This document shows positions 3,718 to 19,359 of a DNA stretch of 30,414 bases, piece by piece. Made by a program: the position numbers and the translations under genes. The stretch's first letter is position 1. The number at the start of each line of letters is the position of its first letter. The stretch comes from a virus: positions 1-30,414 of IMG/VR virus record IMGVR_UViG_3300048836_000301; one strand, 5' to 3'. The notes beneath the pieces were generated by a model. It was not told the origin of the DNA. It worked only from the letters and a program-made list of their open reading frames with translations, and did no database searches.

Positions 3718-3864
3718 CTATGAAATATGCAACTTTTTCTTTAAAATTTGTAATTCTTCATGCAAATAATCTGTTCTTTCTAACAAATGATCTATCATTT
3801 CTTTTTGATCTTTGTTTTCTTTCTTCAACTCCACTAACACCTTTATTAGAGCTTTTTCGTTCAT
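3718..3864 (-). CDS. 48-residue coiled-coil protein, in frame with the lipoprotein
   Basis: ATG 3864-3862 has an excellent AGAGGAGAGG site with 4-5 nt spacing, so independent translation is likely although the same frame is open from the lipoprotein upstream. The product (MNEKALIKVLVELKKENKDQ and on to a Lys-rich end) is one charged heptad helix, probably a dimeric coiled coil, without membrane segment or cysteine. A strong terminator hairpin (3884-3943) directly precedes its ribosome binding site. It may be a separate gene behind the lipoprotein, or the C-terminal domain of a 234-residue fusion. I favour a separate gene because of the ribosome binding site. The function is unknown. Confidence 0.6.
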   Translation of the reverse strand: MNEKALIKVLVELKKENKDQKEMIDHLLERTDYLHEELQILKKKLHIS

Positions 3865-4422
3865 ATACCTCTCCTCTCTAAATAAAAAAAAGCTATTAAC
3901 TGGGGCCACCCGAGATGCTTTGGGCAGGATGCAGTTAATAGCTAGTACAATCCACAATTCATCAAACGTATAAATATAACCAATAGTTGCATTTTTTTCT
4001 AACCCACTCTGAGGTTCTATAATCTTTCCATCAAAATAAACCATGGCATGATCAACTTTACCCCCTTCAACTACTGATCTACTAATAGTAGTGCTATCAA
4101 GAGTGATAAAGCTCATCTTCTGTTTCATTCCAAAATAAGCGATATTTATAAACAGCACAGATATATCTCCACAAGCACCTTTACCAGTAGAAAGGGTAAC
4201 TTCAGGATCTTTGTGCTCAGTGGGATCATCACTAAAATCATAAGTGACATGCTCTTTGATATACTGAGCTATCTTGACATAAGTGTCTAGAGTGTCAAAA
4301 TCACTGTGATAATAGAGTTTTTGTGATCCTAGTTGATTTTCTGTCCACTCATCTTGTACAAAATTGTATACATTCTGACAACCAGTGAGTAGAACAGCTA
4401 ATATAAAAATAAAGTATTTCAT
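3718..4422 (-). CDS. Moron-like lipoprotein with transglutaminase/cysteine-peptidase-like domain
   Basis: Residues 1-15 form a lipoprotein signal: K3, a hydrophobic stretch and lipobox LLTGC with C15 as the lipidated cysteine. After export it would be anchored to a membrane. Residues about 45-140 resemble the transglutaminase-like fold: a helix with YIKEHVTYDF, then GKGACGDISVLFINIAYFGMK with likely nucleophile C84, then VDHAMVYFDG with H125, then KIIEPQSG with E136 where an Asp is more usual. It stands alone between two terminators, with its own extended -10 promoter and no Shine-Dalgarno. This is the layout of a moron and suggests cell-surface alteration, for example superinfection exclusion; that role is inference. 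The lipoprotein domain ends near residue 160. The remainder is encoded by the terminator hairpin and the 48-residue coiled-coil gene in the same frame. Confidence 0.75.
   Translation of the reverse strand: MKYFIFILAVLLTGCQNVYNFVQDEWTENQLGSQKLYYHSDFDTLDTYVKIAQYIKEHVTYDFSDDPTEHKDPEVTLSTGKGACGDISVLFINIAYFGMKQKMSFITLDSTTISRSVVEGGKVDHAMVYFDGKIIEPQSGLEKNATIGYIYTFDELWIVLAINCILPKASRVAPVNSFFLFREERYMNEKALIKVLVELKKENKDQKEMIDHLLERTDYLHEELQILKKKLHIS
3884..3943 (-). terminator. Large terminator hairpin lying inside an open reading frame
   Basis: A perfect 12-bp stem, AGCTATTAACTG with CAGTTAATAGCT (3891-3902 and 3932-3943), is followed on the minus strand by eight T and then ATTT. The 29-nt apical part is GC-rich and can form an inner helix (CTGCCC with GGGTGG, including two wobble pairs). 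The hairpin lies in the frame that links the lipoprotein to the 48-residue coiled coil, with no stop codon before or within it. Confidence 0.85.
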
Positions 4423-4428
4423 AGTGAT

Positions 4429-4437
4429 ATTATATCA
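4429..4437 (-). promoter_or_regulatory. Extended -10 promoter for a leaderless lipoprotein mRNA
   Basis: TGATATAAT on the minus strand combines a perfect TATAAT (4434-4429) with the TGn extension. The start seven bases downstream would be 4422, the A of the lipoprotein ATG. A possible weak -35 (TTTTAG) lies 17 nt upstream. The short gap holds no ribosome binding site. Confidence 0.65.
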
Positions 4438-4458
4438 TATATCTTACATCTCTAAAAT

Positions 4459-4488
4459 AAAAAAAAGGAAGAAACTTTCATTTCTTCC
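4459..4488 (-). terminator. Intrinsic terminator ending the late (structural and lysis) transcript
   Basis: Stem GGAAGAAA / TTTCTTCC (8 bp, 4467-4474 and 4481-4488) with a 6-nt loop is followed on the minus strand by a run of eight T. It lies about 55 bp after the holin stop and just before the lipoprotein promoter. Bases 4489-4543 hold nothing else I can recognise. Confidence 0.85.
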
Positions 4489-6231: not shown

Positions 6232-7968
6232 TTATATTATAGTCCAAGAAATTATAATTCCATCTTTTATAATTACTTCATGTGATCCTTCTGTAGTTGT
6301 GAACGTCTTTGTTTCTGTTAGTCCTATTGAACCATCAGAAGATTTGTATTTTGAAGTTAGATATTTACCAGTATATACTATAACATCACCATACAATAGA
6401 GTTTCAGAAGTTATAGTTGAACCTAAAACTACTTGATTAGATTTAGTTACTCTAGAGTTATAACCAATACAAGTGCTACCAGTAATATTTGTCACACTAT
6501 CTGACCAACTATTGTAACCTATAAATATATTATTTGAAGTATTTACACCTGTAGAGACTCTGTATCCTGAGTCTCTACCTAAAGAAATGTTTGAAGATAC
6601 TGTGCATTTAGATCCTGCATTTCTACCTATAAAAATATTATCTGATTTTATAGATGATGTTGTACCATCAGTTCCACTTTGATAACCTATACAAATATTA
6701 TCAGATGAAGATGTTCCTATGCTTCCTGCAGAATTATATCCAAAGGTTAAATTTCTAAATCCAGTTGTAAGTCTTATTGTATTTAAGGCTCCTATGCTAT
6801 AATTTGAATATCCTGTGCTTAAAATATTATGATTAGAATTTCCTATCACTATATTTGAGAAACTTTGACCCTGAGTTTGTTGTGTGAAAGATATAGAATT
6901 GTTCGATCCTATACATACTTCGTTATATCCAGATGTATAAGTTGTGAGATTGTTTGAGCCCAATATTACAGAGTTACTAAAATTCTTGTTTACGCTTGAA
7001 GATGTTGCATTTAAAGATCCTATCAATAAGTTAGAAGCTCCAGTAGATCCAGTTCTCTCAGATATAGCAGAAGTAGCTTCTAAAATTATGTTCGAATGAT
7101 TTAATCCTGTAGTTCCAAATGTTTTTCTCAATCTTACTAAAGAATCTTTTATTAATTTTCCAGTAGTTCCATCAAAAGTAGATATATAATTATCTAAAGA
7201 AGATATAGGTCCTACCACATCTCCTACTTTGTTATCTATCCACTGAGTGTTATAATCTATAGAGTCTATCTTACTCAAGATTTGACCGGCAGTACCTCCT
7301 ATTGCTACTCCGGGTCCAGGTAAACCTTGAGGTCCAGTTTCACCAATAGGTCCAGTTTCACCTTGAGGTCCAGGTAAACCAATAGGTCCAGGTAAACCAA
7401 TAGGTCCAGTTTCACCTTGAGGTCCAGGTAAACCTTGAGGTCCAGTTTCACCAATAGGTCCAGTTTCACCTTGAGGTCCAGTTTCACCTTGAGGTCCAGT
7501 TTCACCAATAGGTCCAGTTTCACCAATAGGTCCAGTTTCACCTTGAGGTCCAGTTTCACCTTGAGGTCCAGTTTCACCAATAGGTCCAGTTTCACCAATA
7601 GGTCCAGGTAAACCTTGAGGTCCAGTTTCACCAATAGGTCCAGTTTCACCAATAGGTCCAGTTTCACCTTGAGGTCCAGTTTCACCAATAGGTCCAGGTA
7701 AACCTTGAGGTCCAGTTTCACCTTGAGGTCCAGGTAAACCTCTAAGACCCACATTCACATCTATTGCTAAAGGTGTTGCTAAAACATCTATGTTAGTTTC
7801 TTTTTTTTCTACTATTAATTCTGTTGTTTTAGGTTCTATAACTAATTCTCCAGCAATAGTAGTAGCAGTTAAATCTACGTTTAGAGGAGTTTCAACTACT
7901 TCTAATCTAACTTGAGGATCTGAAACAACAATTTTTTCTATTTCTTTTATGACTATTATATCTGTCAT
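6232..7968 (-). CDS. Collagen-like tail fibre with YadA-head-like C-terminal repeats
   Basis: This 578-residue protein has three parts. Residues 1-73 form a beta-rich anchor. Residues 74-220 are 49 uninterrupted Gly-X-Y triplets, almost all drawn from GPI, GPQ, GET and GLP, predicting a collagen triple helix and so a trimeric fibre. Residues about 275-540 carry a repeated pattern around N-(I/V)-x-I-G-x-N-S ([34 protein letters not shown]), as in the left-handed beta-roll head of YadA-type trimeric adhesins. It probably recognises or decorates the host surface at the tail tip; a head-fibre role is possible but less likely next to the baseplate genes. An AGGA site precedes the ATG. There is no intramolecular chaperone domain at the end. 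Confidence 0.85.
7309..7749 (-). repeat. Collagen-coding minisatellite (9/18-bp units)
   Basis: About 49 nine-base units encode Gly-X-Y. The same 18-bp modules (for example GGTCCAGTTTCACCAATA on the plus strand) recur with almost no synonymous variation. Such identity lets units be gained or lost in frame by slippage or recombination, and it may also have caused collapse in a short-read assembly. Confidence 0.95.
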
Positions 7969-7975
7969 TTTATCC

Positions 7976-8341
7976 TCACTTTGTTATTTCAGGACTTATA
8001 TTGCATGTTCCGTTTAATAATCTTATTACTTCTGATCCGTTTACAAGTTCTATATCGTACCATGCTTCAAGCACTTCTGTATAATTAGTGCCTTTAGTTT
8101 CTATTGCTTCAGAATCTGATGCTGGTAAAGATATAGTCACTTCTCCTTCAGTGGGATCTGTGACTGTCACTATAAAATCAGCTAGAGAAGTTGTGTCTGT
8201 AGCCTTTAATTTAATAGAACCTCTACCAGTATATCCAGTTAGATCTATAGGTGCAGGAGTAACTGCACCATCATTTAATTTAACAATCATAGTATATGTA
8301 GAACCTTGTTCTATAATTATATTATATATTCCAGCTGCCAT
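7976..8341 (-). CDS. BppU-N-like / Ig-fold baseplate or fibre-adaptor protein
   Basis: This 121-residue beta-strand protein contains the pattern seen in BppU N-terminal and similar small baseplate proteins: [13 protein letters not shown], then [14 protein letters not shown], then [12 protein letters not shown], then WYDIELVNG near the end. Family members bridge the baseplate to receptor-binding fibres and usually sit next to the fibre gene, as here. AAGGAGAAAAATA precedes the ATG, and the next gene, the collagen-like fibre, follows after 7 nt. No catalytic motif is present. The fold assignment is fairly good; the attachment partner is inferred. Confidence 0.65.
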
Positions 8342-8364
8342 TTATTTTTCTCCTTTTATATATC

Positions 8365-8853
8365 TTATGAAACTCTAGTCCAAGTTCCAGAAACTTTTAC
8401 GTAAACTGTACTTTTTTTCCAAACACCTGCATCTAAAACATAAGGAGTAGTATATAACCAACTGGGAGAATTTTTAACATCTGGATATAATATTACTGTA
8501 CTTTCTGAAGGAATAACTCCATCTTGAAATAAAACATATAATATTTGATTTCCAAAATCATAATAATAACAACCTACTCCTGAAGATAAATATTCTGTAG
8601 TTAAATCTGATATTGAAACTACAGAATTATATCTAACTCCATTTACTAGAACATGATTAATAGAAGGAGTGTTTTCACCCCAAACAGGAGTGGATCCTGA
8701 AGCTAGTGTTGATCCATAACTAGCGTATCCATAAGATCCACTCCCATAAGAAGTATTTGTAAGTGCGAAAGAAGGTTCATAATATTGTACATAATAGATT
8801 CCTCCACCATAAGGAATCCAAAGTTGTTCTTTATTTGCTGTGTATATAGACAT
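8365..8853 (-). CDS. Small tail protein sharing a module with the N-terminus of the 1555-residue fibre
   Basis: This 162-residue protein is rich in Tyr, Ser and Gly. Residues about 35-56 (SYGSGSYGYASYGSTLASG) and a later NQILYVLFQDG closely match the start of its upstream neighbour (FSYGFGAWGYFSYGSSGAG and TQILYVNFQN), so the two share a module, probably by duplication. The end (VYVKVSGTWTRVS) resembles short C-terminal segments in tail-fibre proteins, where a W-bearing strand closes the domain. GAGGTAAAATATG gives the start. It is probably a virion component on the tail tip; the binding target is unknown. Confidence 0.7.
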   Translation of the reverse strand: MSIYTANKEQLWIPYGGGIYYVQYYEPSFALTNTSYGSGSYGYASYGSTLASGSTPVWGENTPSINHVLVNGVRYNSVVSISDLTTEYLSSGVGCYYYDFGNQILYVLFQDGVIPSESTVILYPDVKNSPSWLYTTPYVLDAGVWKKSTVYVKVSGTWTRVS

Positions 8854-8863
8854 ATTTTACCTC

Positions 8864-11800
8864 TTATGGGAAAGTAGGAGCAGTTGTAGCTCCACCTGCT
8901 TTAGTCATAGTTTGATGGAAATATGTACCATCATAAATTACTTTTATTATTCCTCCTGCAGCCCAAGCACCAGTAGTTGTTACTGCACCAGCTTTATAAA
9001 GAGTTTTTGCTCCAGTCCCGTTGATGTTTAAAGTAGATGAAGCAGTTGCACCGTTAGTCATCACTATAGTAGCTTCAGCACCTTTTTCTAGAACCCAGTT
9101 AGAAAGTGTAACTACTTTAGCAGCTGTTGCTTGTGCAGTTGTACAAGTTCCAATTAAACTCTGAGTTGATCTAGTTGCTGTATTAGAATTTCCAGAAACG
9201 TTTCCAGTTAGTGTTCCTACAAATGATGTTGCAGTAACAGAGGTAAGACCTGCTAAAGTAAGTGTAGTTGTATCTACTGGTATAACTGTAGTTCCAATAG
9301 TTATATTAACTGCACCAGTATAAGAAGTTTTATACCAAATGTCTCCATCAGCACCACCACTTGGATCAGAGGCTGATATAGTTTTAGCAGCTCCATTCCA
9401 TTCAGTTGAATCTCTAGATATAGCAGCAGCAATTAAAGTTGATGTATGTGTAGATGTAATAGTTCCAAAAGCTGTAGGTTCAAATCCAATTACCCATCCA
9501 TCATCCCAAGAAGTATAAGTTTCTCCACCGAATCCAGCAACAAAATTTGTAACTCTAATTTGAGGATAAGACCATGTTGAGGCTAATTCACCTATATAAA
9601 CACAACACTTAGTTCCATCGTGACCAAATCTAACTGTAAAATCTCTACCTGTAGAAGTTCCAATAGTTTGAACAGATGTATTAATCCAAGATGGAGTTGT
9701 GATATAATTATATCCAGCAACTTTTACTGTAAAACTTTCTCCAGTTGTGTATTCATATATTTCAACATCAAACTTCATCATAGTAGAAGTCCAAGATTGA
9801 GGAAGAGTTACTTTTATAGCACCAGTTACGGTTGCAGTAGTTGTTTTATAACCTCCACCTTTTGGAGTAGGAATATAAACAGAATTTCCATCACTAACTG
9901 CTAATCCTGTACTTTGAACTGTGTCTAATCCTGTAAGTGCTAAAGCTGCAGATGCTCTATTTAGAGCTACTGCAGTTGTTCCTATATAAAGTGATGAAGC
10001 ACCTAGAACTGCTGAAGGAATTGTTCCAGAAAGTTGACCAGCAATAACGTTTCCAGTTCCATTTATAACTGTTGTTCCGTTATAGTTTAGAATATTATCC
10101 CAACCTGTTCCTATCCAAATACCGTTAGCTGTTCCCGCTCCAGCTGTTTTAGTATCAAACTTTATACCGTTAGTTGTAACACCAGAAGCAGATGCACCGT
10201 TGACTAATCTTATTGAGTTCCAAGTTCCTCCAGATGTTGATCCAGGAGTAACGTTGAATCTTGAAGCACTAGCTTCTATAGCCGCTGCTCCACCAACATA
10301 ATCTACATTTAAAGCACTTGTTCCTGCTGTTACAGTTCCAAATCCAGTGTTACTTATTTGAACTAAATCTACTGTTGGAGCTGCTGTAGAGGCTACTTTT
10401 AGATATCCTGCTGCAGGTTCGTTAAATGTAGTTGAACCTGTTACAGTTCCTCCTGTTAGTGCTAAGTTTCCAGATGCTGTTCCAGTTAGAGATCCTGTAA
10501 TTGTAGATCCAGAGATAGAAATATAATTTGCTCCGTTATACAATCTCATAGATGTTCCATCATCTAATAATTGTATGCCACCTCTAAAAGTTCCTCCAGA
10601 TGTACCAGATAATAACCAAGTAGCACCAGAAGCAACACCCATAAGAGTGTTATGTCCACCAGTGTTTACTCCAGAAGTGACTCCCCAAGAAGTAGAAAGA
10701 CCAGTAGCTTGAATATAACTAGCACCACTTAAAGGAACGTTACCAGATGCTGTTCCTGTTAGTGCTCCAACAAATGTAGTAGAAGTAACTGAAGTTAATC
10801 CTGTAATAGTTGTAGCACTACTTCCAAGAGGTATAGCAGTTGTTCCAACTGTTATAGAACTATTTGCAAGTTGAGCATTTGTAATACCTGCTGTTGCAGA
10901 TAAATTAGAAGTTGTTAGACCACTAACTGCATGTGTGTGAGTTGTAGTTGTAACAGAGTTTGTACTACTGTTAGTAACAGATGAAGGTGTTCCCAATCCT
11001 ATAACTTGTCCAGAAAGAGATAAACCATGATTAGTAGCTAAAGTAACTGCTACGTGTTTGTCAAATCCTAATTTTTCAATAGCTGTTTCAATAGTATCTG
11101 AAGAAGTAATAGTTCCTGAAGCAGCTACATATCCACTTAACACAGCTGCTGTTGGAGTATAAGAAGCAGAAGGTAAATAAGTTGTATTATCATAGCTTAA
11201 AGTTGTTCCAGATGCTTTAACAAATCCTGTTCCGTTGATGATATTTATATTTGCAGTTCCATCAAATCCAACTCCTTGAATAGTTCTAGATGTAGCAAGT
11301 TTAGTTGCAGTTGCAGCGTTAACTGAGAAATTGTTAATTTTTGTCCAATAAGATCCTTCTTCGGGAGTTACTCCCAGATTATCATCTAATAAACTTTCCC
11401 ACCAAGTAGAATTGTAGAAAACTATATTTCCATCTTTATATGAATAAGTTGCCACCCATTCTACTGAACCTGCTCCTCCACTTCCTCCAGAATTAAGTAT
11501 TTCCCAATCTAAGGGATTAGAAGAAGGTGAAGAATTCAAGTTTTGTCTAATAGCTCTGTATAATACTCCATCTTCTGCTGCAATAGCGTTAATAGGATAA
11601 ATTACATAATCTTGCCAGAATAACATACCAAACTCTGACCAGAAAGCTGAATCAGGAACAGGTTTATTATCAATAGAAGGAACAATAGCTCTCCATAATT
11701 GACCATCACTCTGAACAACTGCACCTTGAAGATAACTTACTCCTGGTTGCCACTTAATAAAAGTAGCAAGATCTATGTGAGCTGTTACATCTTCTAGCCA

Positions 11801-18649: not shown

Positions 18650-19359
18650 TTATACCTCTTGTTTAAGTTTCTTTAATCTTTCTTCAAATTGCTCATATTG
18701 TGTGTCAAGTTGTTTACTTACTACTTCGTTAGAGAGAGGATCAGCAAAACTTTCTATATATCTTTTTTTAATATCACTCTCTTTTTGTCCAGCAACAATA
18801 TTAACAATTCTATCTATAGGTATGTTATGAAGATATTCTTGAACATCTTCCCATGTATATTTCCACAACAACTCATCTCGAGGAATTTGATAAACTCTCT
18901 GCATGAGAGATAATATTTTTGTATGATTAATTTTGTAACCGAAGAGGGAATTCTTTTTTACTTCTTCTTTTTTTTTGTGTCTTCTTGAGGATCTTGAACT
19001 GTTCCAATAATATAATTTACAAGAGTATCAAATTCATCTAAGCTTATATTCTCTTGTAGCCATTCTTCGGTAACTTCATGTTTATTTGCTTTTAGTGTAG
19101 CTAAAATTATTTTTAATCCGCAATCTGTAAAATCTTTAGTAGCTTTCTGAAAGTCTTCAGCATCTTCTATAGTAGCTTTCCCTTCTTCATTTTTCTTCAC
19201 ATAATCTGTAATCTTCTTTACAGCTGTATGTTGTAGATCTACATATTGTGCTGTAAGTATATTTAAAATATATGGTCTATATGTCACATCTAATTCTGTT
19301 CCCATAACTGATTTAAATATTCTCTTTTCTTTATTCAAAACTAAACTACTATCTAACAT
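18650..19359 (-). CDS. Tail assembly chaperone, G-T fusion made by -1 frameshift
   Basis: Reading G to the AAG at 18969-18967, slipping back one base and continuing in the other frame gives an unbroken product of about 236 residues ending at 18650. The downstream frame has no stop from the slip site on and carries MQRVYQIPRDELLWKYTWED, then a charged helix ending RLKKLKQEV. In lambda-like phages the G and GT products bind the tape measure in a set ratio before tube polymerisation. The T part on its own (18650-18904) could start at ATG 18904 but has no convincing RBS, which favours frameshifting. It ends one base before the tape-measure ATG. Confidence 0.85.
18958..19359 (-). CDS. Tail assembly chaperone G (unshifted product)
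   Basis: This 133-residue helical protein lies between the major tail and tape measure genes, the position of G-type chaperones. The N-terminal part starts MLDSSLVLNKEKRIFKSVMG, and the last residues are DTKKKKK, encoded by the slippery A-run. RBS AAGGAGAG precedes the ATG. A strong terminator-like hairpin separates it from the major tail gene, which would reduce its amount relative to the tail tube. It is the more abundant of the two frameshift products by analogy with known phages. Confidence 0.85.
   Translation of the reverse strand: MLDSSLVLNKEKRIFKSVMGTELDVTYRPYILNILTAQYVDLQHTAVKKITDYVKKNEEGKATIEDAEDFQKATKDFTDCGLKIILATLKANKHEVTEEWLQENISLDEFDTLVNYIIGTVQDPQEDTKKKKK
18967..18973 (-). other. 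Programmed -1 frameshift site, A AAA AAG
   Basis: In frame the codons are ACA AAA AAA AAG. A AAA AAG is the well-known efficient bacterial slippery heptamer, within a run of nine A. The zero-frame stop TAA follows 6 bases later (18960-18958), and the -1 frame stays open through 18650. Confidence 0.88.

Follow-up and report, generated by a model that had tools for sequence, protein, structure and literature searches.

The closest described parallels to the locus considered here are two bacterial genes, arfA of Escherichia coli (PMC3989581) and brfA of Bacillus subtilis (PMC6881298), which as a group yield nonstop mRNAs through a terminator or an RNase III hairpin located within the open reading frame. 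Both encode ribosome rescue factors, span 71-72 codons and have their own stop codon shortly past the hairpin; by their example, a nonstop arrangement can be functional. A further precedent is the E. coli construct W38p, in which the terminator tR2 lies late in a coding region and the stop codon 38 bp past the U tract. Here, translation reduced termination to about 40%, the suppression depending on how closely the ribosome follows the polymerase (PMC4824070).

The stretch of DNA analysed here, referred to as the window, is a phage contig of 30,414 bases (30.4 kb; IMGVR_UViG_3300048836_000301) with a GC content of 32%. It is metagenome-derived and known from a single copy, as a second one was not found. 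Its minus strand carries phage genes for a terminase, a major head protein, a tape measure protein, a tail fibre and an endolysin, and the endolysin gene is followed by the region of interest and then by a replication-initiation gene. In the direction of transcription, the region comprises the following elements:

4467..4488, minus strand: terminator-like hairpin with T8 that precedes the lipoprotein gene and delimits it as a unit.
4429..4456, minus strand: promoter-like site matching the consensus at 10/12 positions (TTTAGA-16-TATAAT), its -10 element preceded by TG.
3952..4422, minus strand: transglutaminase-like lipoprotein, residues 1-157 (MKYFIFILAVLLTGCQ...GYIYTFDELW), defined by the Pfam match PF01841, the lipobox LTGC and the span of its relatives.
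3865..3951, minus strand: 29 extra in-frame codons, not protein-like, running through the hairpin and the Shine-Dalgarno sequence of the next gene.
3884..3943, minus strand: intrinsic-terminator-like hairpin with a 12-bp outer stem, an inner 6-pair stem and T8.
3718..3864, minus strand: 48-codon coiled-coil ORF in frame with the lipoprotein, with a strong Shine-Dalgarno sequence (GGAGAGG) and a TAG end.

As in arfA and brfA, a terminator-like hairpin stands in frame near the 3' end of a gene, the frame being open across 3943-3884, so that a terminated mRNA would lack a stop codon. Unlike in those genes, the product is a transglutaminase-like lipoprotein and not a ribosome rescue factor, its relatives stop before the place of the hairpin, and the frame enters another gene; nor does the in-frame hairpin recur in the relatives, of which there are two. 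With W38p, the locus shares a stop codon downstream of the U tract, but W38p is an artificial construct in a known host, E. coli, whereas the phage host and its coupling may differ.

The lipoprotein frame (4422-3718, minus strand) comprises 234 sense codons without an internal stop, crosses the hairpin, meets the coiled-coil ORF in frame and ends with TAG at 3720-3718. The outer stem of the hairpin consists of 12 perfect pairs (3943-3932 with 3902-3891), four of them G-C, and encloses a 29-nt loop that holds the inner stem; the T8 tract occupies 3891-3884, its first T doubling as the last stem base. This is the architecture of an intrinsic (Rho-independent) terminator, a stable hairpin directly before a U tract. 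The minimum free energy is -22.7 kcal/mol (z -4.26), a stability reached in none of 200 shuffles, and the coding strand holds three perfect stems of at least 10 pairs that lead into T6 or more, against none on the other strand or in any of 60 dinucleotide shuffles. Given the missing counterparts in these shuffles and the fold z-score, the hairpin is far beyond chance, and presumably it terminates transcription. No Rfam family was matched, and the exact outer stem with a variable loop was not found in viral contigs. An earlier, sequence-only reading of the locus had described a frame free of stops through a perfect 12-bp-stem terminator with eight T, leading into a coiled-coil gene with its own strong ribosome binding site. 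Both descriptions are borne out, the latter by the ATG at 3864 with AGGAGAGG just upstream. Its coordinates were accurate to within a base or two, but the hairpin plus T tract lies at 3943-3884, and the TAG that a -1 slip would expose lies at 3880-3878, not at 3879-3877.

The first 157 residues make up the lipoprotein proper. They match Pfam PF01841 (Transglut_core) above the curated cutoff (E 2.2e-6, 28.4 bits against 23), carry a signal peptide with a lipobox cysteine, recognized by reading (LTGC, residues 12-15), and include a cysteine, C84, and a histidine, H125, that are invariant in all three known proteins and presumably catalytic. AlphaFold, given the three sequences, modelled the core most confidently at residues 41-60 and 71-110, where block means are 77-93; stretches at residues 1-33 and 112-124 are poor, and the final elements are a strand and a helix at 147-165. 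The Foldseek matches, to LapG and further cysteine peptidases, are weak (best E 1e-3, TM about 0.3-0.4). Together with the Pfam match, they indicate a likeness to the transglutaminase-core or LapG-type (BTLCP) cysteine peptidase fold, from which the window protein differs as a short phage lipoprotein of putative function with weak matches. Upstream, the site at 4429..4456 is weak, as promoter matches show no enrichment relative to shuffles; since only 6 nt separate its -10 element from the ATG, the lipoprotein mRNA might be leaderless.

Where does this protein end in its relatives? The gene was found in two further viral contigs only, L082 (IMGVR_UViG_3300034965_000022) and L086 (IMGVR_UViG_3300031521_000238), whose proteins are 40-42% identical to the window protein across the whole lipoprotein (residues 1-157) and have the lipobox cysteine aligned; L082 also has an endolysin 51-52% identical to that of the window. 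The L082 protein ends ...GYAYSFDEVF-TAA and that of L086 ...NYSYSFTEVFN-TGA, where the window protein continues after ...GYIYTFDELW. These ordinary stops thus fall 0-1 residues past the position matching Trp157 of the window protein, eight bases ahead of the hairpin. A stop upstream of the hairpin in relatives, which the sequence-only reading had proposed to look for, is present in both at the aligned position, and this speaks against a designed feature. Neither record contains the coiled-coil gene or a comparable hairpin at the matching place. In L082, the stop is directly followed by a second, different transglutaminase-like lipoprotein gene, the two standing in tandem (8325-9195). Wider searches gave no further relatives: none at the DNA level in the phage collection, none in a protein search of phages and plasmids with the proteins of the window and its relatives, none among genome contigs of the prokaryote genome collection, and no phage with the same leader in a search with the replication protein. 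The terminase has many relatives, none more than 41% identical where the matches are long, and the lipoprotein was absent from all 14 of their records tried. As there are but two relatives, about 40% identical and both without the hairpin and the coiled-coil gene, their stops likely show the ancestral state and not what the window phage uses.

The 29 codons past Trp157 are of a different nature. Their codon score is below that of all 801 29-codon windows from the other genes of the phage, their CAI is 0.33 against 0.57 for the lipoprotein, their GC content 41% against 32% for the genome, and they use CGG, CTG and GCC, codons rare in this phage. AlphaFold predicts disorder for the linker (pLDDT <50 at residues 165-190), and both relatives lack it. 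A required RNA structure also distorts codon usage, so poor codons are expected even in a selected read-through region and are no proof against translation of the extension. Considered together, the stops of the relatives and the extension's lack of coding character place the natural end of the protein at about residue 157. The distance from the Trp157 codon to the hairpin, 8 nt, is much like that at a comparable terminator of the same phage, which starts 7 nt past the stop of its gene (gene end 19424, hairpin 19416).

We therefore consider it probable that an ordinary phage gene has here ended up without the stop before its terminator, its frame remaining open by chance into the next gene. 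The terminator, promoter-like site, transglutaminase-like lipoprotein gene and intrinsic terminator would form a unit of phage cargo ('moron'-like), in which the lipoprotein naturally ends at about residue 157, directly ahead of the hairpin that serves as its terminator. In this copy the in-frame stop would have disappeared, leaving the frame open through the hairpin to the next gene. Provided that the copy is real, transcripts ending at the hairpin would carry no stop codon and ribosomes would need rescue, the product probably being tagged and degraded through tmRNA; with a ribosome close behind RNA polymerase, termination would be partly suppressed, yielding a 234-residue fusion. By analogy with the described systems, both the tmRNA-cleared nonstop mRNA and the read-through fusion are expected to arise, in some proportion. 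The sequence-only reading had posed these outcomes as alternatives, a nonstop mRNA or else the fusion; its logic is sound and has the E. coli parallel (PMC4824070), but the earlier stops of the relatives tell against the arrangement as a designed feature. Against a chance origin it can be held that a 29-codon open run has a probability of about 8% at this composition, and only about 2.6% if it must also be in frame with the next gene, that hairpin-forming codons would look poor even if read-through were selected, and that the comparison comprises two relatives, about 40% identical and without the hairpin or the coiled-coil gene.

A loss of the stop, as opposed to a misreading, is our inference, and so is the fate of the product. 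A sequence or assembly error, masking a normal stop that the real phage has after the Trp codon at 3954 and ahead of the hairpin, we regard as rather unlikely, although it accords with the relatives stopping at that point and with the origin of the sequence from one metagenome-derived contig without a second copy. Moreover, each of the other two frames meets a stop at the 5' arm of the hairpin or within it (TAG 3944-3942, TAA 3937-3935), so a small indel error there would hide a stop; such closure is unremarkable by itself, being seen in about 15% of random 23-mers. Whatever happened must concern the bases from the Trp codon at 3954 to the hairpin arm, and as the stretch 3954-3938 contains no homopolymer longer than 2, a run-length assembly error is not an obvious cause. 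The other 35 genes of the contig read without visible breaks. For these two reasons we favour a real, small mutation. The sequence-only reading had suspected a miscount of the T8 run or a -1 slip within it, which is not borne out: the TAG revealed in this way is located past the U tract, where a terminated RNA is expected to have ended already. An altered genetic code was likewise considered, prompted by the stop usage of the 35 listed genes (TAA 25, TGA 10, TAG 0), to which the coiled-coil ORF with its TAG is the exception; it was dropped, as reading TAG as sense convincingly joined or extended no gene and would merely lengthen frames. Separately, an ORF upstream of the tape measure gene (19359-18958, minus strand) ends in ACACAAAAAAAAAGAAGAAGTAA (18958-18980), whose A9G run may represent the programmed frameshift that is usual in tail assembly chaperones.

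A functional arrangement, in which translation through the hairpin opens it for polymerase to reach the coiled-coil gene, or in which the nonstop mRNA makes the level of the product tmRNA-dependent as in ArfA and BrfA, is unlikely in our view. Besides these precedents, its merit lies in the surroundings. Only 26 nt separate the hairpin from the coiled-coil ATG, and since the scan shows nothing promoter-like in this interval, this gene is probably reached by read-through only. In addition, three successive genes within 3943-3257 (minus strand), namely the coiled-coil gene (ATG 3864), a 46-aa ORF (ATG 3549) and the replication-initiation gene (ATG 3257), share one layout, each being preceded within about 27 nt by a terminator-like hairpin, T6-T8, a Shine-Dalgarno sequence and then the ATG, which suggests control by read-through or attenuation. 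It is conceivable that this is a region of regulated read-through ahead of the replication gene, and that the missing stop could help. However, the arrangement is not conserved, the relatives having stops, the product is a transglutaminase-like lipoprotein and not a rescue factor, and a ribosome reading through would yield the fusion, within which the separate start of the coiled-coil gene would be buried. The more specific model of a translation-coupled attenuator made of a full-length gene, not of a short leader peptide, is very doubtful. Finally, a true fusion, in which the hairpin would be inactive and the lipoprotein would have 234 residues and end in a coiled coil, is highly improbable: the two ORFs are indeed joined in frame, but the coiled-coil ORF has a strong Shine-Dalgarno sequence and ATG of its own, the linker is not coding-like and is predicted to be disordered, and the hairpin looks like a strong terminator.

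The leader region downstream has further structure. The intergenic RNA at 3715-3560 (minus strand) is strongly structured (-43 kcal/mol, z -4.7), and the terminator hairpin at 3607-3573 has a loop side complementary to the 12-nt ACTGGGAAGTTC from 3676, which makes a pseudoknot or antiterminator possible. In L082, two hairpins with T runs stand upstream of the replication gene (6520-6670); their loops, GTGGCGG and CCGCCAC, could pair, in a leader that would resemble that of the window without sequence similarity.

What does the open frame mean for this phage? Most likely, we are looking at an ordinary gene with a lost stop, or with a small sequence error, and not at a new control mechanism. If the missing stop is an error, terminator-containing frames need comparison with relatives before they are described as programmed. 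In a real copy, the outcome, nonstop mRNA or read-through, depends on the host; and if the sequence is right, this would be a natural phage gene whose own terminator gives rise to a nonstop mRNA, and with it both the translational suppression of terminators and the cost of ribosome rescue to a phage could be tested.
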